From Pseudomonadota bacterium (GTDB taxonomy: Bacteria > Desulfobacterota > Syntrophorhabdia > Syntrophorhabdales > Syntrophorhabdaceae): a DNA stretch of 64,000 nt. Location of the stretch: the NCBI GenBank assembly GCA_026388315.1, contig JAPLKA010000024.1, positions 1 to 64,000 on the forward strand. Direction: 5' to 3'. Under the pieces are notes generated by a model. That model did no database searches. It had not been told where the DNA came from and worked only from the letters and a program-made list of their open reading frames with translations. A program made the position numbers and the translations under genes. Positions within the stretch are counted from its first letter, which is position 1. Each line of letters starts with the position of its first letter. This document shows, piece by piece, positions 32,710 to 60,375 of this stretch.

Positions 32710-33537
32710 ATGCTGACAAAAGAGAGTTTCATCTTATTGAGAGACTTTATATATGAAAAGACAGGCATATTCTTTGCCGAGAATAAGACCTACCTGATGG
32801 AGAGCAGGCTGACGAACAGACTGAGTGAGCACGGTTTCAGCACCTATGAAGATTACTATTATTTCCTGAAATACGGAGGTGAAAAGTCGAAGTCGGAAAT
32901 GCTCAGTCTCTTCGATGCGGTAACCACAAATGAAACAAGCTTTTTCAGGAATCCTCCCCAGCTTGATGCGTTCAAAATGATAATGCAGAAACATTACTTC
33001 AACGGTAAGGGCGCAGGTACCCAGTTAAGGATTTGGAGCGCTGCCTCCTCTACAGGAGAAGAGGCCTATACGCTGGTCATTATTCTCCTTGATATGATGG
33101 AAAAGCTGAAGAGGAACATCTCATTTACGGTCGTTGCGACGGATATAAGCCCTAAAGTCCTGGAATCTGCCAGGAAAGCGGTATTTGGTTCATACAGCGT
33201 GAGGAATATAGATGAAGCCATACGCAAAAAATATTTTGTCGAAGAGGGGGGGGTTTTCAAGCTGAAAGACATTGTGAAGAAATACGTCAAATTCGATTTT
33301 ATGAATCTGATGGATGCGAATGCATACCGGACGTACAAGCATATGGACGTCATCTTTTGCAGGAATGTTCTTATCTATTTTGATGACAAGATGAAGAAAA
33401 AGGTCATTGATAACATGTATGAGTGTCTGAAATTGCCGGGATTCCTTACCATCGGCCACGCTGAGTCTCTCCATAACCTTTCAAGGGCATTTAAACCCTT
33501 GGTTTTTCCCGGGACAACTACTTATCAAAAAGGATAA
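32710..33537 (+). CDS. cheR: Chemotaxis receptor methyltransferase CheR
   Basis: The protein is 275 residues. A helical N-terminal domain (about 1-80, with FILLRDFIYEKTGIFF) is followed by a Rossmann SAM-binding domain with WSAASSTGEEAYTLVI (motif I, normally GCSTGEEPYS), ATDISPKVLESARKAVFG and FCRNVLIYFDD. It methylates glutamates of chemoreceptors. The SAM motif differs from the usual CASTGEE only in having AASSTGEE. Confidence 0.95.
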   Translation: MLTKESFILLRDFIYEKTGIFFAENKTYLMESRLTNRLSEHGFSTYEDYYYFLKYGGEKSKSEMLSLFDAVTTNETSFFRNPPQLDAFKMIMQKHYFNGKGAGTQLRIWSAASSTGEEAYTLVIILLDMMEKLKRNISFTVVATDISPKVLESARKAVFGSYSVRNIDEAIRKKYFVEEGGVFKLKDIVKKYVKFDFMNLMDANAYRTYKHMDVIFCRNVLIYFDDKMKKKVIDNMYECLKLPGFLTIGHAESLHNLSRAFKPLVFPGTTTYQKG

Positions 33538-33541
33538 CATT

Positions 33542-33913
33542 ATGAAAACAATATTAATTATTGATGACTCACCGACGATACGAAAATTGTTAACCTATGT
33601 GTTAAAAAAACAGGATTATATCATTGCAGAAGCAGAAGATGGAATAGACGCTATGGAAAAATTGAGCCATGTTCAAGCGGATATCATCATTGTAGACCTC
33701 AATATGCCGAACATGGACGGTATAGAATTTGCGAAAAACCTGAGGAGCAATTACTATTACATGGATACGCCAATTATCATGCTGACTACGACAAAAGATG
33801 ACGAGTTGAAAAGACAGGCACTGGAAGCCGGTGTCAATCTATTCTTAAATAAACCTATCCAGCCGAATATACTTTTATATAAAGTTCAAAGTCTTTTGAT
33901 GGGGGTGGAATAA
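33542..33913 (+). CDS. cheY: Chemotaxis response regulator CheY
   Basis: This is a 123-residue single receiver domain with acidic pocket D8-D9, phosphorylation site D52 (VDLNMP), the switch threonine in LTTT (82-84) and lysine K104 (NKPIQP). Lying four bases before cheA, it is very probably the CheY that turns FliM. The sequence after D52 (NMPNMDGIEF) is standard. Confidence 0.95.
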   Translation: MKTILIIDDSPTIRKLLTYVLKKQDYIIAEAEDGIDAMEKLSHVQADIIIVDLNMPNMDGIEFAKNLRSNYYYMDTPIIMLTTTKDDELKRQALEAGVNLFLNKPIQPNILLYKVQSLLMGVE

Positions 33914-42388: not shown

Positions 42389-43774
42389 ATGAGCATATCT
42401 TCCATACTGAATATTGCTAAAAATGCGATGTATGCGCAGCAGACGGCGATGCAGGTCGTGTCTAACAATATTTCAAACGTGAATACAACAGGATATGCCA
42501 GACAGGAAGCGGTGTTTAATGAAGCCGGCGCAGTAATCTCGGATGCCGGGCTTGTCGGGACAGGGGTTAGGGTGCAGTCCATCATGCAGCACTATAATAG
42601 GTACCTTGAGATGTCTGTTGCTAAGGAAAATAATGCCCTCGAAGAGCAGAAAACCTTTGAAAAATATTTTGAGCGGATTGAAGGCGTGCTTGATGAAAAC
42701 AATTCAAAGCTTACCTCCAATATCGTTGCATTTTTCAACGGGTGGCACGAATTATCAGCCGACCCGTTGAGCGTTATTGCAAGGACGGATGTGGCAACAA
42801 AGGCTATAAACCTCGGAAGGACAATCAGCAACATAAGCGAAGAACTTAAAAATATGCAAATCGAAATCGACCAAAATATCGGGCAGGACGTTACAGAGAT
42901 TAACCAGATGCTCAATTCTATTGCAGAACTGAACAATAAAATTTATGAGAGCGGTACAAACGAAAATTCGAGTTTTGCAAACAATCAATTACAACTATTC
43001 CGGGAGCTTTCGGCGAAACTGGACATTACATCCTTCAGGGACGGCAACGGAGGACTGACAGTGATGACCACAGGCGGCAAAGTTCTTGTGGATAGGATAA
43101 CGGCTTACCAGCTTACAGCAGAAAAACAAGGTGGATTTTCCACAGTTGTCTGGAATGGAGGCTCTGGCACATCCCTTGATATTACAGATGAAATCAAGAG
43201 CGGCACATTAAAAGGTCTTTTTGATCTCAGAGACACCTACCTCGACGGTTTCCTGGGAGATACGGACGACCTGGCAAAATCTATCATGACAGAAATCAAT
43301 AGTGTCCACGAGACAGGCTATAACATGAACGGTACAACCGGCATCTCATTTTTCAAGACTGTGGATGATGATTATGCAATAAATATGGATATCAGTGACG
43401 AAGTAAAGTCTGATGTAAGAAACATTGCCGTAACTTCGTCGGCAGGCAACCCGTCCGGCAACGATATTGCATTGGCTATCGCAGAACTCGGCGACAGTAC
43501 GGTTACGATCGGCGGCCAGGATAGGACGTATGTTGAATTTTCTTCATCCATAGTAAGCGAGATCGGTAACCTGACGAAAAACGCAAAAGACCTCTCTGCA
43601 TACCATCAAAACGTTATGACTATGGTAGAAAAGCAGCGGGACAGCATTTCCGGTGTTTCCATTGACGAGGAGATGTCGAACCTTATCAAATTTCAATATG
43701 CATATCAGGCAGCAGCCCGCCTTATCAATGTTGCGGATGAGCTTTTCCAGAGCGTACTGGGGATTGGCACATGA
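42389..43774 (+). CDS. flgK: Hook-filament junction protein FlgK (HAP1)
   Basis: The protein is 461 residues. The N-terminus has QTAMQVVSNNISNVNTTGYA and the motif RQEAVFNEAG. The C-terminus has GVSIDEEMSNLIKFQYAYQA AARLINVADELF (a joined pair of short motifs). It is compact compared with enteric FlgK (about 550). It lies between FlgN and flgL and shares an ATGA overlap with flgL. Confidence 0.95.
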   Translation: MSISSILNIAKNAMYAQQTAMQVVSNNISNVNTTGYARQEAVFNEAGAVISDAGLVGTGVRVQSIMQHYNRYLEMSVAKENNALEEQKTFEKYFERIEGVLDENNSKLTSNIVAFFNGWHELSADPLSVIARTDVATKAINLGRTISNISEELKNMQIEIDQNIGQDVTEINQMLNSIAELNNKIYESGTNENSSFANNQLQLFRELSAKLDITSFRDGNGGLTVMTTGGKVLVDRITAYQLTAEKQGGFSTVVWNGGSGTSLDITDEIKSGTLKGLFDLRDTYLDGFLGDTDDLAKSIMTEINSVHETGYNMNGTTGISFFKTVDDDYAINMDISDEVKSDVRNIAVTSSAGNPSGNDIALAIAELGDSTVTIGGQDRTYVEFSSSIVSEIGNLTKNAKDLSAYHQNVMTMVEKQRDSISGVSIDEEMSNLIKFQYAYQAAARLINVADELFQSVLGIGT

Positions 43775-45627
43775 GAATTACGGACAGTTTGAGATACCAA
43801 CTGTTTCAGTCAAGCATTAGTAATGTCCAGAAAATGCTTGACGATATAGAAAGAAAGATTTCCACACAAAAAAAGGTTAATGTACCTTCAGATGATGCCC
43901 TGAGCTTTTCAAAAAACATCGAATTGGATGCGAATGTCAGTATCTACGGTCAGTTTAACAAAAATATGGAGCAATCGAAGACGCTTGGGTCAATGTACGG
44001 CACTTCATATGAAAGCATCGGGAACCAACTGGACATTCTCTACAAAGAAGCAAATGCATACGGCACGATGGATGACGATCTGAAAAGGGCTGCCGGTGTT
44101 GAGGTTGAGGGTATCATAGAGCACCTCATCACTATAGGAAATACGAAGCTTGGAAATAATTATATCTTTGGAGGGAAACAGGCAGATGTGCCCCCGTTTC
44201 AGTTGAATAATGACTATTCAGTTGGTTTTAATGTTTCTCAACAGGCAGAGGAGGCAACAAAGATATATATCGATAAGGCGCAGACAGGAAAATATGGTGT
44301 TTCCGGGAGAACGGCATTCTACGACACCTCAAAGATTGCCTTTGGCCGTGTTGCAAATACCTATACAGGGGATATCTATTCCAATACGGATAAATTTGCA
44401 TATGTTATCGATGCAACGAATAACAAGATATTCCTGAATGGGGCGGCAGTTACACTCACATCAGGTGTGTACACAGGCGGAGGTCTCGCAAAAGAGATTC
44501 AGAGTAAAATTGGTGTCACCTACTCAGCAGGGTTCGATTCGACTACCCGTAAATTTGTCATTACCAATAACACGGACGCTGCTGTGACCTTTAACTGGTC
44601 TGACGCCGGTGCTACGGCGAGAAGTGTGCTTGGTTTCGATAATATCGATTCTGTTATTGCTTCGGGCAAGACGGAGACAAGCGATATCGACACGGGTAGA
44701 AAATCATTTCTCGTGGAGACTACAACCGCAGGCGCTACAACCGGAGCCCTTGGCGCAAGGGCGGTTTACCGCTATTCCCTTGATGGAGGCGCTACTTGGA
44801 CTGCAGGCGTTACAGTTAATACCGGCGGTGCCGATGAAACAACGGCGGACATCACGATAGATGCAACCAACAACACGCTCTATAGAAATGGCGTTGCCAT
44901 AACCCTCGCAAGCGGAACATACACGGGCGACTCGGAGACATTCCCGGCGACATCCCTTGCAACGGAGATTCAAACGAAACTCAACGCTGTCCAGGCAGGG
45001 CATATTGTCACCTATGATGCATTAACGAGAAAGTTTAATATTACCAACAACACCGGAGATGTTGTCAACTTCAACTGGTCAAATACCGGTGCAACCGCTG
45101 CAGGCGTCCTCGGTTTTGATAACGTGGATTCTGCGTTGAGCAACGGGACAGCCGATGTCAGCGACTATGATGCAGGTATGTTTATTGACGGGGCAGGTGT
45201 TGTAAACACAACAAACAACCGTATCAAATTGCTTTTCAGCACAACAGGAAACCTTGTGGCAGGCGGAACGCCGGATACCTTTGAAGTTAAAGACTTAAGC
45301 ACATTTGAATTACTTAAGAATTACAAAGATGCCTTTGAGTCCGGCAACACGGAATGGGTTTCAAAAAATCTGAAAAACCTGCAATCAGCACGGGAACTTA
45401 CCACAAAAAATGCCGCCGTTGTAGCCTTCAGCGGTGTTCAGGCAGATAATCTGATAGCAGATAACAAACTAAGGGATGCAAGAATTGCTGAAACGCAGTC
45501 AAAGCTTATGGATGCCGATATGACGGAGCTTGCAACACAATTTAATGCGCTGCTCAATACATACCAGGCAATGCTCTCTGTATTAGCCAAGATGCAGTCA
45601 ATAAGCATTCTCAATTATCTGAAATAG
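43771..45627 (+). CDS. flgL: Hook-filament junction protein FlgL with a duplicated insert
   Basis: The protein is 618 residues, about twice the usual 300. The N-terminal D0/D1 (MRITDSLRYQLFQSSISNVQ) and C-terminal (QSKLMDADMTELATQFNALL) regions are normal. In between, two related units lie at about 212-306 and 363-468. Each begins IDATNN, has a GVAITLASGTYTG-like strand pair, a TRKFxITNNT segment, FNWSxxGATA and VLGFDN. The units were clearly duplicated and will be displayed on the outside of the junction. An ATGA overlap with flgK couples the two. Confidence 0.94.
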   Translation: MRITDSLRYQLFQSSISNVQKMLDDIERKISTQKKVNVPSDDALSFSKNIELDANVSIYGQFNKNMEQSKTLGSMYGTSYESIGNQLDILYKEANAYGTMDDDLKRAAGVEVEGIIEHLITIGNTKLGNNYIFGGKQADVPPFQLNNDYSVGFNVSQQAEEATKIYIDKAQTGKYGVSGRTAFYDTSKIAFGRVANTYTGDIYSNTDKFAYVIDATNNKIFLNGAAVTLTSGVYTGGGLAKEIQSKIGVTYSAGFDSTTRKFVITNNTDAAVTFNWSDAGATARSVLGFDNIDSVIASGKTETSDIDTGRKSFLVETTTAGATTGALGARAVYRYSLDGGATWTAGVTVNTGGADETTADITIDATNNTLYRNGVAITLASGTYTGDSETFPATSLATEIQTKLNAVQAGHIVTYDALTRKFNITNNTGDVVNFNWSNTGATAAGVLGFDNVDSALSNGTADVSDYDAGMFIDGAGVVNTTNNRIKLLFSTTGNLVAGGTPDTFEVKDLSTFELLKNYKDAFESGNTEWVSKNLKNLQSARELTTKNAAVVAFSGVQADNLIADNKLRDARIAETQSKLMDADMTELATQFNALLNTYQAMLSVLAKMQSISILNYLK

Positions 45628-45768: not shown

Positions 45769-45795
45769 TTAAGTTTTTTCTCAATCAATCGATAA
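45769..45795 (+). promoter_or_regulatory. Sigma28 promoter of flagellin
   Basis: TTAAGTTT (45769-45776), 11 bases, then ATCGATAA (45788-45795). Transcription should begin near 45802, almost exactly at the ATG of the leader ORF at 45803 and about 123 bases before the flagellin ATG. Confidence 0.88.
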
Positions 45796-45802
45796 TACAT
45801 TC

Positions 45803-45910
45803 ATGAAGATAAGTATTAAATCAGTACCTGCGAGGGAGGTGAAAGGAATAAAAGGAGTGGGTACAAAAGTAACAATCCCCGGCGAGATCGCCGGGAGAAA
45901 AAATTCCTAG
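45803..45910 (+). CDS. Possible 35-residue leader peptide upstream of flagellin
   Basis: The frame runs from ATG 45803 to TAG 45908-45910 and stops one base before the flagellin Shine-Dalgarno region. It encodes a basic, glycine-rich peptide (starts MKISIKSVPAREVKG, ends PGEIAGRKNS). It would start at, or within a base or two of, the expected transcription start, so it would be translated without a leader. It could couple or tune flagellin translation. It is short enough to be chance, so confidence is limited. Confidence 0.35.
   Translation: MKISIKSVPAREVKGIKGVGTKVTIPGEIAGRKNS
45878..45895 (+). promoter_or_regulatory. GC-rich hairpin in the flagellin 5' leader
   Basis: CCCGGCG pairs with CGCCGGG around a 4-base loop (AGAT), 16 bases before the ribosome site. 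It is a candidate target for the FlbT regulator encoded 1.4 kb downstream, which in Caulobacter acts on the flagellin 5' leader. Confidence 0.5.
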
Positions 45911-45925
45911 AAAAGGAGAACTACC

Positions 45926-47092
45926 ATGAGTAACGTATCTTTAACCACAGGCATGAGACAAAACTTATTAAGCTTACAGTCAACGAACATTTTACAGGAA
46001 ATGACACAGAACAGGCTGGCTACAGGGAAGAAAGTCAACTCGGCGCTTGATAACGCCACAAACTATTTTACCGCCCTTTCTCATACAAACCGTGCAAGCG
46101 ACCTTCTTGGTTTTAAGGATGCTATTTCAGAGTCAATCCAGACCATTAAGGCGGCAGACACAGCGATTAGCGGCATAACAACGCTGATCAACTCTGCAAA
46201 GGCTTTGGCTGAGGATGCAAAAGGCGCAATCAATCAGTCTTCAATGAGCCAGACTCTGACAATCAGTAGCATTACCGGACTAACCGCAGCAAGCACCTTA
46301 ATGATCGGTGGTACTACATTTACAGCAGTTTTGTCTTCCACTTCACAATCGGTAGGCGATTCAAAGTTTTATGTCGGCACCACTGCGGCGGAATTGGCCA
46401 CCAACCTTGCCTTTGCAATCAACACTAAAACTGAAGGCACTGATCCTATGAGCGCCACGGTATCCGGCAACGTTATCACAATTAAGAAAGACACCGTTGC
46501 TGCGATGGTCGCCACAGATATCGACCTCGGCGGCGCGACTGCCGCAGCCGTGATGACTGAATCAACTATTGGCAGCGGTGCCGAGCTTGACGCAAAGGTA
46601 GCAAAGTATGCAACCTTTATGAGCCAGCTCGATGATCTGAAGACTGATGCATTTTACAAAGGGAAAAACCTCCTTGGAGGTACAGGCGGTGGTACTAACG
46701 ATATGGTTGTTAATTTTGGCAACAACCACTCACTCACTGTGGCGTCCTTTGATGGTTCCAGATCGGGCTTGTCTCTCAGCCAGACCGCTACTGGCAGTTG
46801 GGCTACGGAAGCCAATATCGAAACAGATACCGACAAGCTGGATGCAGCCCTTGTGACATTGAGAATCCAATCTGCAGATCTGTCCAGTAACCTGGCTATC
46901 GTCAACGCCAGGGATGAATGGATTAAGGGCATTGCGGCTACCCTCCAGGCCGGTGCAGACAAACTGACCCTTGCAGACAGCAACGAAGAAGGAGCCAATA
47001 TGCTCATGCTCCAGACCAGACAGTCAATCAGTACATCGGCATTGAGCATGTCAGCTCAGGCTGCGCAGTCGGTATTGAGATTGTTCCAGTAA
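45926..47092 (+). CDS. fliC: Flagellin with an inserted middle domain
   Basis: The protein is 388 residues. The N-terminal D0/D1 has MRQNLLSLQSTNILQEMTQN and RLATGKKVNSALDNATNYF, and the C-terminus has LQTRQSISTSALSMSAQAAQ and SVLRLFQ. A middle insert (about 105-215) contains LMIGGTTFTAVLSSTS, SKFYVGTTAAELATNLAFAI and TVSGNVITIKKD, similar in layout to the insert of FlgE in this window. It forms the filament and is the presumed substrate of the nearby glycosylation genes. AAAAGGAGAA precedes the ATG. Confidence 0.95.
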   Translation: MSNVSLTTGMRQNLLSLQSTNILQEMTQNRLATGKKVNSALDNATNYFTALSHTNRASDLLGFKDAISESIQTIKAADTAISGITTLINSAKALAEDAKGAINQSSMSQTLTISSITGLTAASTLMIGGTTFTAVLSSTSQSVGDSKFYVGTTAAELATNLAFAINTKTEGTDPMSATVSGNVITIKKDTVAAMVATDIDLGGATAAAVMTESTIGSGAELDAKVAKYATFMSQLDDLKTDAFYKGKNLLGGTGGGTNDMVVNFGNNHSLTVASFDGSRSGLSLSQTATGSWATEANIETDTDKLDAALVTLRIQSADLSSNLAIVNARDEWIKGIAATLQAGADKLTLADSNEEGANMLMLQTRQSISTSALSMSAQAAQSVLRLFQ

Positions 47093-47160: not shown

Positions 47161-47358
47161 ATGTCAATAGATAAAATAGGCAGTATAAATACAACTTTGT
47201 ATACTGATCCCAGGGCAGTGCCAAAAAAGCAGCACCCTGTTCCGGAAAAGACAGAAAACATACCTACCGATAAAGCAGGGAAAGTAAATAACGTGGCAAA
47301 GATCAAAGACCCTCCCTTTTTTCCTATCGGAGATACATGGAGCATATTTAACGAATAA
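47161..47358 (+). CDS. Small unknown protein after flagellin
   Basis: The protein is 65 residues and hydrophilic, proline- and lysine-rich (DPRAVPKKQHPVPEKTEN), with a short hydrophobic end (PPFFPIGDTW). AGGAGGTG lies just before the ATG, which argues that it is translated. It occupies the position where some species carry flaG, but I see no FlaG signature. It is followed by flbT 11 bases later. Confidence 0.6.
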   Translation: MSIDKIGSINTTLYTDPRAVPKKQHPVPEKTENIPTDKAGKVNNVAKIKDPPFFPIGDTWSIFNE

Positions 47359-47369
47359 ACGGGACTACT

Positions 47370-47768
47370 ATGGCGCTGAAAATATATTTAAAACCGCAGG
47401 AACGTGTAATTATCGATGGAGCAGTCATAACAAACGGTAATACAAAGTGTGAATTGATTGTTGAAAACAATGTACCGCTTTTACGTGAAAGGGACATACT
47501 CCGCGAGAAGGATGCGGTAACCCCTTGTAAGCGGATATACTTTATGATCCAGCTTATGTATATCGACAAAAACGATCTTGCCGGGAAACACGAAACTTAC
47601 CGGGCACTGGTAAAGGATGTCACAGAAGCAGCGCCGAGCACGGCAGTAGTGCTCGGGCAGATAAGCGGGCATATTTTAAACGGTGCATACTATCCGGCGC
47701 TCAAATTGGCAAAGAAGTTAATCAGGTACGAAGAGGAGGCCATGGAACATGCCAGGGGCAGGGCTTAA
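47370..47768 (+). CDS. flbT: Flagellin synthesis regulator FlbT
   Basis: The protein is 132 residues. The start MALKIYLKPQERVIIDGAVI and the segment CKRIYFMIQLMYID are characteristic of FlbT. In Caulobacter FlbT binds the 5' leader of flagellin mRNA and blocks its use until the hook is ready. Here it lies just after flagellin and overlaps flaF by 20 bases. It is mainly known from alphaproteobacteria. Confidence 0.9.
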   Translation: MALKIYLKPQERVIIDGAVITNGNTKCELIVENNVPLLRERDILREKDAVTPCKRIYFMIQLMYIDKNDLAGKHETYRALVKDVTEAAPSTAVVLGQISGHILNGAYYPALKLAKKLIRYEEEAMEHARGRA

Positions 47769-48126
47769 CGCTTACAAAGAAACACAGAAGGCAACCCTGT
47801 CGGGCCGGGATCTGGAGGCATCGGTCCTCACGAAGGCAGCCCTCCTGCTCAAGTCATGCCAGGAGCAGTGGAACGGAGGAGGCCATTTTAAAAGGTTCGA
47901 TGAGGCCCTGACATTCAACCAGAAGATCTGGACCATTTTCCAGGATGAGCTTGCAAGAAAAGATAACCCCATGCCGGCACAATTAAGGGCAGATATTTTG
48001 AAGCTTAGTCTTATCATTGATAAACGGATTATTGAAGTGATGAGTAACCCGTCACCTGAGAAACTTGATCTTATCATCAATATTAATCTCAATATTGCCG
48101 CAGGTCTTCGAGGCTCGCCGGCATAG
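47749..48126 (+). CDS. flaF: Flagellin synthesis regulator FlaF
   Basis: The protein is 125 residues of the FlaF family: the start has GLNAYKETQKATLSGRDLEA, then EASVLTKAALLLKSCQEQW and FNQKIWTIFQDELARKDNP. FlaF promotes flagellin translation or secretion and opposes FlbT in alphaproteobacteria. It overlaps flbT by 20 bases, so the two are made together. Confidence 0.9.
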   Translation: MPGAGLNAYKETQKATLSGRDLEASVLTKAALLLKSCQEQWNGGGHFKRFDEALTFNQKIWTIFQDELARKDNPMPAQLRADILKLSLIIDKRIIEVMSNPSPEKLDLIININLNIAAGLRGSPA

Positions 48127-48196: not shown

Positions 48197-51100
48197 CTAT
48201 ATCACGTTTTCAGTTTGAGCATTCAGCTCCTCTAAAAGAACAACGGAATCCTTGAGTGTGTTGTACCCGGAGGCAACCACGCTTTTCAGGAGGAGTTTTG
48301 CATATTCGCTCCTCTCTGCCTTAATCAGTTTTTTAGAAAGGGAATGGAGTGCAATGCTGCAGTCATACCGCTTTGCCTGCATCTCTTTGAGCAGCGCAAT
48401 GCCCTTACCTGTTTTTTCGCCAATGCAGTATGCAGCAGCCAATGCCCCTATGGCCGTCAGATACCCGGGTTCTTTTTTGTGTAGATTCTCCAGGACGTCA
48501 GTTGCTTCCATAATATCTCCCCAACAGATGGAGGATGTCGCAAAACCGAGCAGGGCCTCTTTTGACTGTGGATTTATGTCCCTCGCAATCCTTGCCGCAG
48601 CAAGGGCCTTTTCGAATTCTCCTGTCTCAAGATAAAGGGTTGTCATATTAAAATATGCAGTATGGTCATCAGGTTTAAACTTGATATACATCTCCCAGAG
48701 TCCAATGGCTGCCGTATATTTTCCGAGCTCACCTGCCTGTATGGCAAGCTCCCGTAGCGCCTTTGTATCCTGAAAAGACATCATCTTTTTTCTGCCCAAT
48801 TCAAAGTACATCTCGGCCCTTGACGAAGATCTTTCCTGATCAAGCTTACCGTAATGGTGTATGGGGATGGTGCAGTGTCTGATTTCAATCCCGGCTTGTG
48901 CTAATGAAGGCTCCACGAATTCGTGGACCTGATTCTGGAATCGTATTCTGCTATCATTGCGAAATAGTCTGGTTTTTATCGAGGGGTGCCAGCCGGCAGC
49001 CTCTTCTTCGTCAGGGTACTCACCGCTGTTCTGGTTCCAGCCTTCAACGGACGAGTTATTCGTATAGTTTCTGGTCGTTAGTGTATACGCTACGAGTTGG
49101 GGTGTTTTCTGCCCGATAATATCCTTCAGTTTATCGTAATCACGGGATGATATGACTTCGTCCGCGTCATGGACGAGGATCCATTGACCCTTTGCAAATG
49201 ATAATGAATGATTCCTTGATGTGGAAAAATCATCAGTCCACGGAAGATCATAGACCTTTGCCCCGAAAACCCTCGCGATGTCCTTTGTTCTGTCTGTGGA
49301 TCCCGTATCAACGACGATGATCTCATCAGCGACGGGTATGAGGCTTACAAGGCAGCGCGCTATGTACTTTTCTTCGTTTCTTGCGATCATGCACACCGAA
49401 AGAGTACCGGTTTTCCTGCTCGAAGCGTTAATGATGAGAGAACCGATGTTTTCTCGCACGGAGAGTGCAGCAGAGAGTATTTCATCATCAATACCAAAGG
49501 TTACCAGTGCATTTTCTATTTCTTCCATTGCCTCAGTGTATTTTTCCTGCTGCAAAAGAATACCGATGAAAAGAAACGAGAGTCTTTTATTCTCAGGAAA
49601 GAGCCCACAGGCTTCCATAAATACCCTTTCCGCCCTTGAAAACTCATTTAAAGAGGCGATGGCGGAATTGTATGTTGTTGAGAAGTCCCCGGTTTCCGGT
49701 GAAAGAATAAAGCCCTTTTCAATGAGGTCCAATGCTTCCCTGTGTTCGTTGTTGTGCCATTTTATTGTTCCCATATTCACATAGGAGCCTGCGAAACAAG
49801 GATCCGCAGCTATTGCCTGTCGAAACAAAACTTCGGCTTTCTTTCGATCTTCCCGTTTAAGCGCCATTAAACCCTTGAGATTAAGAGCCCTCGCTGAATC
49901 ATTTGAAAAGGAAAGTACACGATCAGCATAGTTTTCAGCTTCTTCCATGCGGCCTGTATAGTAACTACAATACCCGAGTATCTCCAATGCCCTTGCCTTG
50001 CTCCTTCCTGCTTCCGGCAACGACCGTATAGCTTCTATAGATTCTTCGTATTGTTTTTCCTCTAACAAGATTTCAGCAAGACAATAATAAAGTTCCTCCT
50101 CTTCAGGTGCGTATTTTATCCCTTCCATAATGGCCTGCACCGATTCATCGAGGAGGCCCTTGCTGTTAAAATCACGGGCGTTTTTCATGGCGACAAAAGG
50201 TGAAAGTTTTTTCCCTGTTGCGCTATGAGGGTTAAATATATCCCATTGTTCATGAAAGACTTCATTTGACCCTTTCCTTCTTATATCGCCCCGGCCAAGA
50301 TACATGCAGCTATTGCCTGCAATCACAGCCTGCTGTCCTTCAACAAGCGCCCGCATACGAAAATCGTTGATTACAAAATAGGGGGCTTCTATTTGTTCGT
50401 TGAAAAGACCAATGGTATCAATTAGCTCTCTTTTGGTAAGCGCATATATACAGTCAATTTCAGAGGTTACGATATAACGATGCCGGTTGCGGTCGCCAAA
50501 AGCCCTCGCGTATTCCTCAAAATCCTTGAAAGACATTTGCTGAGTCTTGGGAATCTGCTGGATGCCGATTGCACGATTTGACATGGGGACGGTTATCCCG
50601 TACTCCGGGCGTGCATCCATGCACTCACGCATTTTCTTAAGGGACCCTTTAAGCATGACCGTGTTTCCGTCGAGAATCAGGACATATTGCCCGGTGGCTT
50701 TTTCCAATGCCATGTTGCAACTGGCGGCATAGTTGGCGTTTTTTGCAGTGCCTATTATCTTGCAATGAGTATTTATGGCAATAAATTTGTTCAGCCACGC
50801 AGGCGTTTTTAACGAACCGATTGTGGCGAGGATAATTTCATGTGGTTCAGTAACATGAGCACGGATTGACTCAAGGCATCGCCTTGTATTATCGTTGAAT
50901 TCAGATACCGGGATGATTATTGATGTCAGCCCTGGAACCATTGTGGTTTTGATCTTTTTGGTTTTGATCTGCTCATGATTCGTAGCGAGTTGTCCTTTTT
51001 TCGTCGCTACATTGGCATCCCTGCAGTCATTGTCGATTTTGTTGGTCACGACCTGAGCTGGACGGACAGGTTCCCGCCTCTCATAGCGGGCAAACCAAAT

Positions 51101-53665
51101 GCTGGTACCTCCGATTACCCCATGCTCAACCGGGGGCGTGCCTGAAAATATCAACTCGTGGACCGCCCGGATCACGTCCACCCCACCGGTGTGATAGTCA
51201 TGCCCGCAGATGATGCCGCCAGGCTTGATACATTTTAGCGCAGCGGTAATGTCGCGCCGGACATTCTCGTAATCATGGGCTCCGTCGACAAAGATTAGAT
51301 CGAAAAATAGCTCAGGCAGGATGCCGGCAAACTGTGCCGTCGAGCCTCGCAGAATCCTGATTTTATCGCCAAATTGCTCCACATTGCGCAGAAAGTCTTC
51401 GAATATTGCGAAATCGCTGTGTGGCAGAAGGTCTGCAGTGGCATCCAGTTGCCGGATACCCTGCTCCATAAAATCCCGCCAGACATCGAGGCAATAAAGC
51501 TCCATGCCGGTATCGCGCATGGCGTAGCCGATGGCGTTGGTCGACCTCCCCCGATACGACCCGATTTCCAGAATCTTTGCCGAGTTCGGCAACAGTTTGA
51601 TCAGCCGATGGAGCGAGAGGACTTCCGCCGTTGTGAACCAGCCGCCGATGGGCTCGATGGCGCCGAGAACCGTGATCTCAGATGCAGTGAGCGGTACTGC
51701 GGCCAGTTTGGCAAGTGATAACTCGCGGTTGTCGTCATGGGACAATATAGACCTGGGCACATATTTTTCTAAGATTGAACGTTCATACAGAGGCGAATAG
51801 TGTTTGCTCTTATCGAATTTCCGGGATAATATTTCTGCAATGTCATAAGGAGAACCGTAGGGGAGATCTTTCTTAATACCCCACTTTTCCTTAAACATCT
51901 CCCATGCACCCAACATTAATTCGTTATATTGATTATCTCCTCTTCCCTGAGGGCCGCCGGTATGATGAATAAAGATATCATCTGCAATCAAAAGCTTAAA
52001 TCCCGCAACCTGGGTGCGGAGTGAATAATCATCATCATCAAATCCAAACAGCTTGCCAAAATTGGGGTCTATGCAACCAATTTTATCGATCACTTTTCTG
52101 GAGATGAACATACAAAAACCGATCAGGCGAATTGTTTGTGTCACGTGGTCATGATTCTGACTGGACCACGCTTCGGCAAATGTCTCCAATTCGACGATAT
52201 TATGGTAAGAAGCATTGTTAACGATCTGAGGCCCGGAAACATAATTCGATCTCGGCCCGATAATCCCCACCTCAGGATGATTTTCCGCGTGCTTTATAAA
52301 TTTACTCGCCCAGCCTTTTGTGACTATCGCATCATCGTCCAAGGAAGCAATATATTTCCCCCTTACCAGCGACATCGCTTGTGCCCGGGCAGGCGAGTAG
52401 CCTATATTCGTGGGGTTTGCTATTACGACAGTACCGGGAACCGTTTTAACATAATCCAAGGATCCATCATTTTTTGCATTATCGACAACCACAATTTCGT
52501 GACTTTCGGGAGTATTCCTTTTAATGGATTCTACACAGGCCTTAATATGATCGATCCCGTTGTAACTGATGATCATAATGGATAACAGCGGGGTTGCCTC
52601 AACACATTTTGTTGCCATGTCAGCCCATGTCCATCGTGAAAGCGCTTGTGTTTCCATCCCAAGCTTTTCGCGGGCCTCGGCAACGGGAAGAGAAATCCAT
52701 TCCTTTGCTTTAATATAGTCTGAGGGTACAGGGCAATGTGTGCGTCGTGCAAAGATTTCCACTATATGATCATAAAGCCCCTGGCAAGAGTACTTGCTGA
52801 GGTTTCCCGCTTCTACCCATGTATCTATGTTTGCAATGTATTGAAGATACTCCGATTCACTCATCAACATTAAATAATTGCTAAGGTCTTGGTAAGTCGA
52901 GAACGATCGCATATCAATAAAACACGAAGAAGGAATGTAGTCTTCGATATTTGTGCAACCGAGATAGATAGGTACGGTTCTGGTCTCAAAGCAATCGAGC
53001 ATTTTTTCAGAAACATACCCGCGCGAATATTCTGGATGATTAATATTTTCGAATGCAACTGCAAATTTATACTTTGCCAATGTCCGATATTTTGATTCTT
53101 TGGTAAAACTTGATCCATCCATCAGTGCTCCGCGATAGTTGGGCAAGGGAAATGGAGGATATCCATACACATCGAACGCAAGCTGAGAGTGTTCACCAAA
53201 CCAGCGTGCAATTTCCAACCGCTTGGAATAAAGCTCTCCTTCAACCGCCGACTGTTTATACCCTGCAATCATACAGATCGCTTGCTGCCTATCCCGCAAT
53301 GGATATACGACCTCCCGTTCATCCTTGTTTTCGATGGCAGCCGGATAATGAGCCCAACCCAACCGGGGGGTGAGGATGTAAGAAATGTTTTTCTCTTCAG
53401 ACGCGAGTGCTTCATAATAGGTTACTATGTGGTCGAACTCCTTCCACACGGCCTCATGAAACTGTCCAGGTAACACAATGATGGGTTCCCCTAAAAGAAG
53501 CACGCTAAAACCTGGAATTATGCCGGTATAACTAAAGGCGTCCCAATAAACGTAGATATCGCACCCAATAATTGGTTTCGCCGACCATATTACCGTCACA
53601 GAACCGCGGCGAAGAGACTGGGTGTCATCAGCTCTCAAATGTGCATAGACGATATTAATATCCAT
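48197..53665 (-). CDS. Giant multi-glycosyltransferase/methyltransferase/TPR fusion
   Basis: The protein is 1822 residues with no signal peptide. In order: a GT10-like (fucosyltransferase-type) domain at about 1-310 (KYKFAVAFENINHPEYSRGY, then EKMLDCFETRTVPIYLG); GT2 at about 355-600 (SIMIISYNGIDHIKACVESI, DDD metal motif); a class I SAM methyltransferase at about 670-860 (LEIGSYRGRSTNAIG); a second GT2 at about 908-1130; TPR repeats at about 1170-1405; a third GT2 at about 1420-1640 (CMIARNEEKYIARCL, DADEV); and more TPR to the end. It probably builds a glycan on flagellin, with TPR units binding the protein. It ends the minus-strand sugar operon. The methyltransferase stretch is clearly richer in GC. 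Confidence 0.93.
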   Translation of the reverse strand: MDINIVYAHLRADDTQSLRRGSVTVIWSAKPIIGCDIYVYWDAFSYTGIIPGFSVLLLGEPIIVLPGQFHEAVWKEFDHIVTYYEALASEEKNISYILTPRLGWAHYPAAIENKDEREVVYPLRDRQQAICMIAGYKQSAVEGELYSKRLEIARWFGEHSQLAFDVYGYPPFPLPNYRGALMDGSSFTKESKYRTLAKYKFAVAFENINHPEYSRGYVSEKMLDCFETRTVPIYLGCTNIEDYIPSSCFIDMRSFSTYQDLSNYLMLMSESEYLQYIANIDTWVEAGNLSKYSCQGLYDHIVEIFARRTHCPVPSDYIKAKEWISLPVAEAREKLGMETQALSRWTWADMATKCVEATPLLSIMIISYNGIDHIKACVESIKRNTPESHEIVVVDNAKNDGSLDYVKTVPGTVVIANPTNIGYSPARAQAMSLVRGKYIASLDDDAIVTKGWASKFIKHAENHPEVGIIGPRSNYVSGPQIVNNASYHNIVELETFAEAWSSQNHDHVTQTIRLIGFCMFISRKVIDKIGCIDPNFGKLFGFDDDDYSLRTQVAGFKLLIADDIFIHHTGGPQGRGDNQYNELMLGAWEMFKEKWGIKKDLPYGSPYDIAEILSRKFDKSKHYSPLYERSILEKYVPRSILSHDDNRELSLAKLAAVPLTASEITVLGAIEPIGGWFTTAEVLSLHRLIKLLPNSAKILEIGSYRGRSTNAIGYAMRDTGMELYCLDVWRDFMEQGIRQLDATADLLPHSDFAIFEDFLRNVEQFGDKIRILRGSTAQFAGILPELFFDLIFVDGAHDYENVRRDITAALKCIKPGGIICGHDYHTGGVDVIRAVHELIFSGTPPVEHGVIGGTSIWFARYERREPVRPAQVVTNKIDNDCRDANVATKKGQLATNHEQIKTKKIKTTMVPGLTSIIIPVSEFNDNTRRCLESIRAHVTEPHEIILATIGSLKTPAWLNKFIAINTHCKIIGTAKNANYAASCNMALEKATGQYVLILDGNTVMLKGSLKKMRECMDARPEYGITVPMSNRAIGIQQIPKTQQMSFKDFEEYARAFGDRNRHRYIVTSEIDCIYALTKRELIDTIGLFNEQIEAPYFVINDFRMRALVEGQQAVIAGNSCMYLGRGDIRRKGSNEVFHEQWDIFNPHSATGKKLSPFVAMKNARDFNSKGLLDESVQAIMEGIKYAPEEEELYYCLAEILLEEKQYEESIEAIRSLPEAGRSKARALEILGYCSYYTGRMEEAENYADRVLSFSNDSARALNLKGLMALKREDRKKAEVLFRQAIAADPCFAGSYVNMGTIKWHNNEHREALDLIEKGFILSPETGDFSTTYNSAIASLNEFSRAERVFMEACGLFPENKRLSFLFIGILLQQEKYTEAMEEIENALVTFGIDDEILSAALSVRENIGSLIINASSRKTGTLSVCMIARNEEKYIARCLVSLIPVADEIIVVDTGSTDRTKDIARVFGAKVYDLPWTDDFSTSRNHSLSFAKGQWILVHDADEVISSRDYDKLKDIIGQKTPQLVAYTLTTRNYTNNSSVEGWNQNSGEYPDEEEAAGWHPSIKTRLFRNDSRIRFQNQVHEFVEPSLAQAGIEIRHCTIPIHHYGKLDQERSSSRAEMYFELGRKKMMSFQDTKALRELAIQAGELGKYTAAIGLWEMYIKFKPDDHTAYFNMTTLYLETGEFEKALAAARIARDINPQSKEALLGFATSSICWGDIMEATDVLENLHKKEPGYLTAIGALAAAYCIGEKTGKGIALLKEMQAKRYDCSIALHSLSKKLIKAERSEYAKLLLKSVVASGYNTLKDSVVLLEELNAQTENVI

Positions 53666-60348: not shown

Positions 60349-60375
60349 TTAAGTAATTTCATTCCGGTGCGATAA
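60349..60375 (+). promoter_or_regulatory. Sigma28 promoter of the 306-residue gene
   Basis: TTAAGTAA (60349-60356), 11 bases, then TGCGATAA (60368-60375). Transcription should begin near 60382, giving a 66-base leader that ends in GAAGGAGGCGG before the ATG at 60448. Confidence 0.78.

Follow-up and report, generated by a model that had tools for sequence, protein, structure and literature searches.

The flagellin locus described here raises the question of whether a short open reading frame (ORF) that fills the 5′ leader of a flagellin gene works through its peptide or through its translation, or whether the leader acts as an RNA that the frame happens to cross. The window, i.e. the whole 64,000-nucleotide stretch of DNA analysed, lies on contig C24 of a draft genome of 3.8 Mb. 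Among named relatives, the nearest are MAGs of Deltaproteobacteria, several of which bear the label Syntrophorhabdus. The reading favored here, which we consider quite probable, is that positions 45803-45925 form the structured 5′ leader of a flagellin mRNA transcribed by σ28 and controlled by FlbT.

The flagellin locus and its 5′-proximal reading frame

The flagellin gene (45926-47092, + strand, Pfam Flagellin_N) is preceded by two ORFs, 42389-43774 and 43771-45627, which are flgK- and flgL-like by sequence, the latter ORF matching Flagellin_C only below the cut-off. Downstream lie flbT (47370-47768, + strand, PF07378, 142 bits) and then flaF (47749-48126, + strand, PF07309, 111 bits), while a 65-codon ORF lacking a Pfam match (47161-47358) is located between flagellin and flbT.

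An exact match to a σ28-type promoter (TTAAGT-N15-CGATAA) is present at 45769-45795 on the + strand, and a comparable block occurs in all relatives of the order. A first-pass annotation had placed the end of the −10 block at 45795, an ATG at 45803 and a 35-codon frame running to a TAG at 45908, all of which is confirmed by ORF calling and the exact promoter match. This frame (the uORF, 45803-45910, + strand, stop codon 45908-45910), also seen in the leaders of relatives, would encode the 35-residue peptide MKISIKSVPAREVKGIKGVGTKVTIPGEIAGRKNS, which matches no Pfam family. It is predicted to start at the mRNA 5′ end, itself a prediction from the promoter, and is thus possibly leaderless. The GC hairpin noted earlier within the frame is likewise present (CCCGGCG-AGAT-CGCCGGG, 45878-45895). 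The stop codon does adjoin the flagellin ribosome site, as had been claimed, but the gap before the Shine-Dalgarno (SD) sequence AGGAG (45914-45918) is three bases and not one. The uORF ATG and the flagellin ATG at 45926 are 123 nt apart and share a frame, because the distance from the TAG to the flagellin ATG is fixed at 18 nt. A second exact TTAAGT-N15-CGATAA site is found at 60349-60375, and an ATG lies one base beyond it (CGATAATATGAACAAG); this site is present in genome G002 too.

Conservation of the start codon, frame and peptide

Leaders oriented from the collected flagellin relatives gave 15 distinct uORF-type leaders in the order, representing genera g1, g5 and g11 of family f1 and one f2 genome. 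In all 15, the ATG lies exactly 7 nt past the −10 block [CT]GATAA, and the trinucleotide is constant while its flanking bases vary. Among the 58 other flagellin leaders that contain a CGATA block, only 8 have an ATG anywhere 4-12 nt past it. The start codon singled out in the first-pass annotation, close to the predicted 5′ end, is shared by three genera of the family and is found in a second family as well. A general association of this ATG with σ28 promoters of the family was considered and rejected, as the other σ28-like sites inspected carry no ATG at that distance. L024, which is more distant, also combines an ATG and an open frame, though without a clear −10 block. A degenerate pattern search for further uORF leaders in the order returned nonspecific matches only, and missed known leaders.

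Twelve of the 15 leaders, spanning three genera of the family, keep the frame open as far as the shared TAG. The distance from ATG to TAG is 96, 99, 102, 105 or 120 nt in the in-frame leaders, and small indels offset one another in L006, L020, genus g1 (L003/L004) and L016. The exceptions are L008 (early stop), L013 (TAA 2 nt before flagellin) and L018 (frame ending inside flagellin). Counted by lineage, 9 of 12 are open to the TAG, versus 36% of segment-swap chimeras (p about 0.006), a comparison drawn from a small set of related leaders and inflated by relatedness, since segment exchange removes the effect of common descent only partly; frame keeping beyond this null is suggestive only. Because frame 3 is also open in 8 of the 15 leaders (frame 2 in none), an open frame of this size is by itself unremarkable. 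The kept ATG position and the keeping of the frame moderately exceed simple expectation.

These observations bear on two explanations of the uORF. One, to which we give tentative and minority weight, holds that the leaderless uORF is translated: ribosomes would melt hairpins 2 and 3 of the leader (described below) and stop at the TAG, 3 nt short of the SD, thereby coupling flagellin translation to that of the uORF or throttling it, and leaving the peptide free to drift. The fixed spacing of the ATG from the −10 block, the lack of such an ATG at the other σ28-like sites inspected, and the indels that restore the frame are consistent with this, as are mycobacterial cases in which a uORF within a structured leader controls the gene that follows (PMC11260477, PMC4633059), but the three deviating leaders and the inflation of the frame test are not in its favor. 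The other explanation, the chances of which appear evenly balanced, is that the open frame is an accident, in which common descent left a purine-rich, RNA-constrained leader open, and the ATG is no more than the conserved surroundings of the transcription start (+1 A). The similarly open frame 3 fits an accidental origin, which accounts less readily for the closed frame 2, the compensated indels, and the invariance of the ATG amid changing flanks. Neither explanation conflicts with control of the leader by FlbT.

The substitution pattern, which the first-pass annotation had proposed to check for synonymous changes in related species, argues against a conserved leader peptide. For the 17 pairs compared, the uORF frame has a pN/pS of 1.24 and the two other frames have 0.91 and 0.89, versus 0.43-0.44 for flagellin as control coding sequence, with no synonymous bias and no sign of purifying selection on the uORF amino acids. 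For example, L003 and L004 differ by 7 substitutions within the ORF, all non-synonymous, and the frame that crosses the hairpin varies by lineage. The unconserved peptide counts against a translated uORF, and the predominance of non-synonymous changes fits an accidental frame. The same holds for L009 and L012, whose leaders are nearly identical despite highly diverged flagellin synonymous sites (pS 0.61), suggesting that RNA constraint suffices to preserve the frame. As judged from these sequence comparisons, the constraint on the leader falls on the RNA and not on the peptide; since the peptide is not kept, at most the act of translating the uORF would matter.

Covarying tandem hairpins in the leader RNA

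The window leader folds better than its shuffled versions (z −3.4, 0 of 200). In the MFE structure, stem-loop 1 (45824-45864, + strand) is formed by the arms GTACCT (45824-45829) and GGGTAC (45859-45864), and covariation is seen in helices 1 and 2; within the order, stem 1 shows a GC-to-AU double change in 3 sequences, with 96-98% of cells paired. Loop 1 exposes the SD-like box GGGAGGTGA (45834-45842, + strand), which has no well-spaced start codon. By motif counts, GGAGGT occurs in 15 of 15 uORF leaders, and GGAGG in the 5′ half of 44 of 68 other leaders, versus 9.8 expected. A role of the box as ribosome binding site of another uORF was rejected, as only 1 of these 44 has a suitably spaced start codon. 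Hairpin 2 (45878-45895, + strand) is the GC hairpin mentioned above, with a conserved AGAA/AGAU-type loop, and is followed by the anti-SD hairpin 3 (TCCT-AGAAA-AGGA, 45905-45917, + strand), which holds the uORF TAG and covers the SD. The pairing probability of the SD AGGA in the window is 0.92-0.99, while the GGGAGG of loop 1 is mostly unpaired.

The two hairpins extend well beyond the order. Fifty-eight flagellin leaders, taken from records under the labels Deltaproteobacteria, Nitrospirae and a small number of other groups, can be aligned over an AGAA-type-loop hairpin and a further hairpin, CC(U)AGAAAAGG, in which the SD lies. This tandem element shows 81 double-changed cells, compared with 21.5 (sd 3.9) in shuffled alignments, and a covariation score of 0.355, compared with at most 0.142 when slid. 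A covariance model of the tandem hairpins, R1, matches the window at 45867-45928 (+ strand) with 66.4 bits, the window having been in the training set. The conserved feature in these sequences is thus a pair of tandem AGAA-type-loop hairpins, the second of which hides the SD, together with an exposed GGAGG box, and the flagellin leader is predicted to be structured around a hidden SD, with covarying support. A long-range pairing of 5′ UGAAGA with flagellin codons, present in the MFE structure, was discarded because it would be disrupted in L004, L013 and L015, which carry G-to-C changes. A weak R1 match at 33487-33544 (13.5 bits, E 0.07), immediately upstream of an ORF at 33542, is probably due to chance.

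The uORF TAG sits within the RNA hairpin CCUAGAAAAGGAG, which is also present in leaders without the ORF: TAGAA is found in 38 of 68 flagellin leaders without the uORF, and most of the remainder have C(C)CAGAAA. The position of the stop, which the first-pass annotation had proposed to compare among relatives, is fixed because the TAG belongs to this hairpin, and is accounted for by it. A translated uORF is further disfavored because the passage of ribosomes would disrupt the conserved hairpins, and because the RNA is retained where the uORF is missing, both in paralogous flagellins and in other lineages. Among the paralogs, the L026 and L029 flagellins of genus g5 retain hairpin 2 and lack the uORF ATG. 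L026, L027 and L029 are second, larger flagellins of this genus with different promoter-proximal sequence; in L026 and L029 the CCCGGCGAGATCGCCGGG hairpin is kept, and the SD stands in another context, without a uORF. The uORF is best read as a lineage-specific overlay on an FlbT-type leader, and its translation, going by sequence, is possible though doubtful.

FlbT and CsrA/FliW as candidate regulators of the flagellin leaders

Among 99 genomes, FlbT was found in 21, CsrA in 44 and FliW in 42. FlbT and FliW overlap in none of the 99 (hypergeometric about 1e-6, phylogeny uncorrected), and FlbT and CsrA only through one weak match. R1 matches above 50 bits occur in 20 of the 99 genomes, 19 of them among the 21 FlbT genomes, a co-occurrence confounded by phylogeny and drawn mostly from MAG sequences; most of the strong R1 matches came from the training set, whereas the absence of R1 elsewhere is not circular. 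In the twentieth genome (G032), which lacks FlbT, the flagellin lies at a contig end, and conversely G069 has FlbT without an R1 match. Of 18 further genomes with such flagellin leaders, 12 of which were picked since no FlbT was seen next to their flagellin, 14 contain FlbT and none CsrA; FlbT was not found in the genomes of L062, L092, L106 and L093, all MAGs. Genus g1 holds both types, with CsrA/FliW in G001 and FlbT in G000 and G002, which suggests, at the level of gene content, replacement of one module by the other. FlbT/FlaF and CsrA/FliW may be two alternative modules for the same job.

A CsrA-controlled leader acting through GGA motifs, as in Campylobacter flaA, was also considered. 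Both layouts have two leader hairpins, one of them over the SD (PMC4894983), and the loop-1 box and the SD of the window leader both include GGA. Unlike in flaA, however, the conserved loops are of AGAA type and not ANGGA, and CsrA is lacking in all 18 further genomes with such leaders. Neither CsrA nor FliW was found in the window's genome, so that their control of this flagellin was rejected, and a CsrA-type leader is highly improbable.

FlbT has been proposed to bind the flagellin 5′UTR (PMC4347634, PMC3930126), and in Caulobacter it represses flagellin translation together with FljJ until FljJ is secreted (PMC7591256). As with the Caulobacter fljK and Brucella fliC leaders (PMC4347634, PMC3930126), a flagellin 5′ leader is here accompanied by flbT and flaF, and a role in translational timing is proposed. 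Unlike those systems, the present leader belongs to another phylum, follows a σ28 instead of an RpoN promoter, is a candidate FlbT target, and contains an RNA element defined by covariation. Binding data on FlbT are confined to Alphaproteobacteria, and its binding to the present leader is a proposal. In the favored FlbT-controlled reading, FlbT encoded downstream with FlaF would most likely bind the tandem hairpins and keep the SD closed, delaying flagellin translation until completion of the hook-basal body, as reported for Caulobacter, and its release would open the SD. The exposed GGAGG box of loop 1 could perhaps serve as a 30S standby site, where the subunit waits, or as a decoy. The uORF, if translated, would act through ribosome passage or through termination beside the SD, in competition with the fold. 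A stronger version, in which ribosomes loading at the 5′ AUG are in competition with FlbT for the leader RNA and SD opening is set by the act of translation and not by the peptide, seems rather unlikely. Two of the above papers (PMC4347634, PMC3930126) describe the mechanism of FlbT action on flagellin mRNA as unresolved, which gives value to a concrete candidate binding site: covarying AGAA-type hairpins that accompany FlbT in several phyla, in genomes that lack CsrA. The uORF clade also supplies naturally occurring variants for examining translation of the leader.

Other leaders offer partial parallels. Structured leaders of Mycobacterium tuberculosis also contain short ORFs (PMC11260477), and mycobacteria commonly use leaderless starts (PMC4633059); the sequences and regulators are unrelated, and the uORF here is a candidate known from sequence alone. 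The flg-Rhizobiales RNA (RF01736, listed in PMC2864571) is a candidate structured RNA whose name suggests flagellar genes, but its covariance model matches neither this region nor 14 other loci, and Rfam gave no relevant match for the region or for those loci, alphaproteobacterial ones included. Eight alphaproteobacterial flagellin leaders beside FlbT (from Azospirillum, Roseobacteraceae and Rhodovastum) show, by eye, a CAGAAAG-loop hairpin upstream of the start. R1 did not match the alphaproteobacterial leaders, and the likeness in layout is by eye only. Of the eight, the four from Roseobacteraceae have a second AGAA hairpin ahead of GGAG, i.e. an AGAA SD hairpin, and Methylorubrum L127 has tandem hairpins, but with other loops. 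In the window, the flagellin operon is adjoined by a 1822-codon ORF (48197-53665, − strand), whose sequence resembles glycosyltransferase and TPR modules and which possibly functions in flagellin glycosylation.
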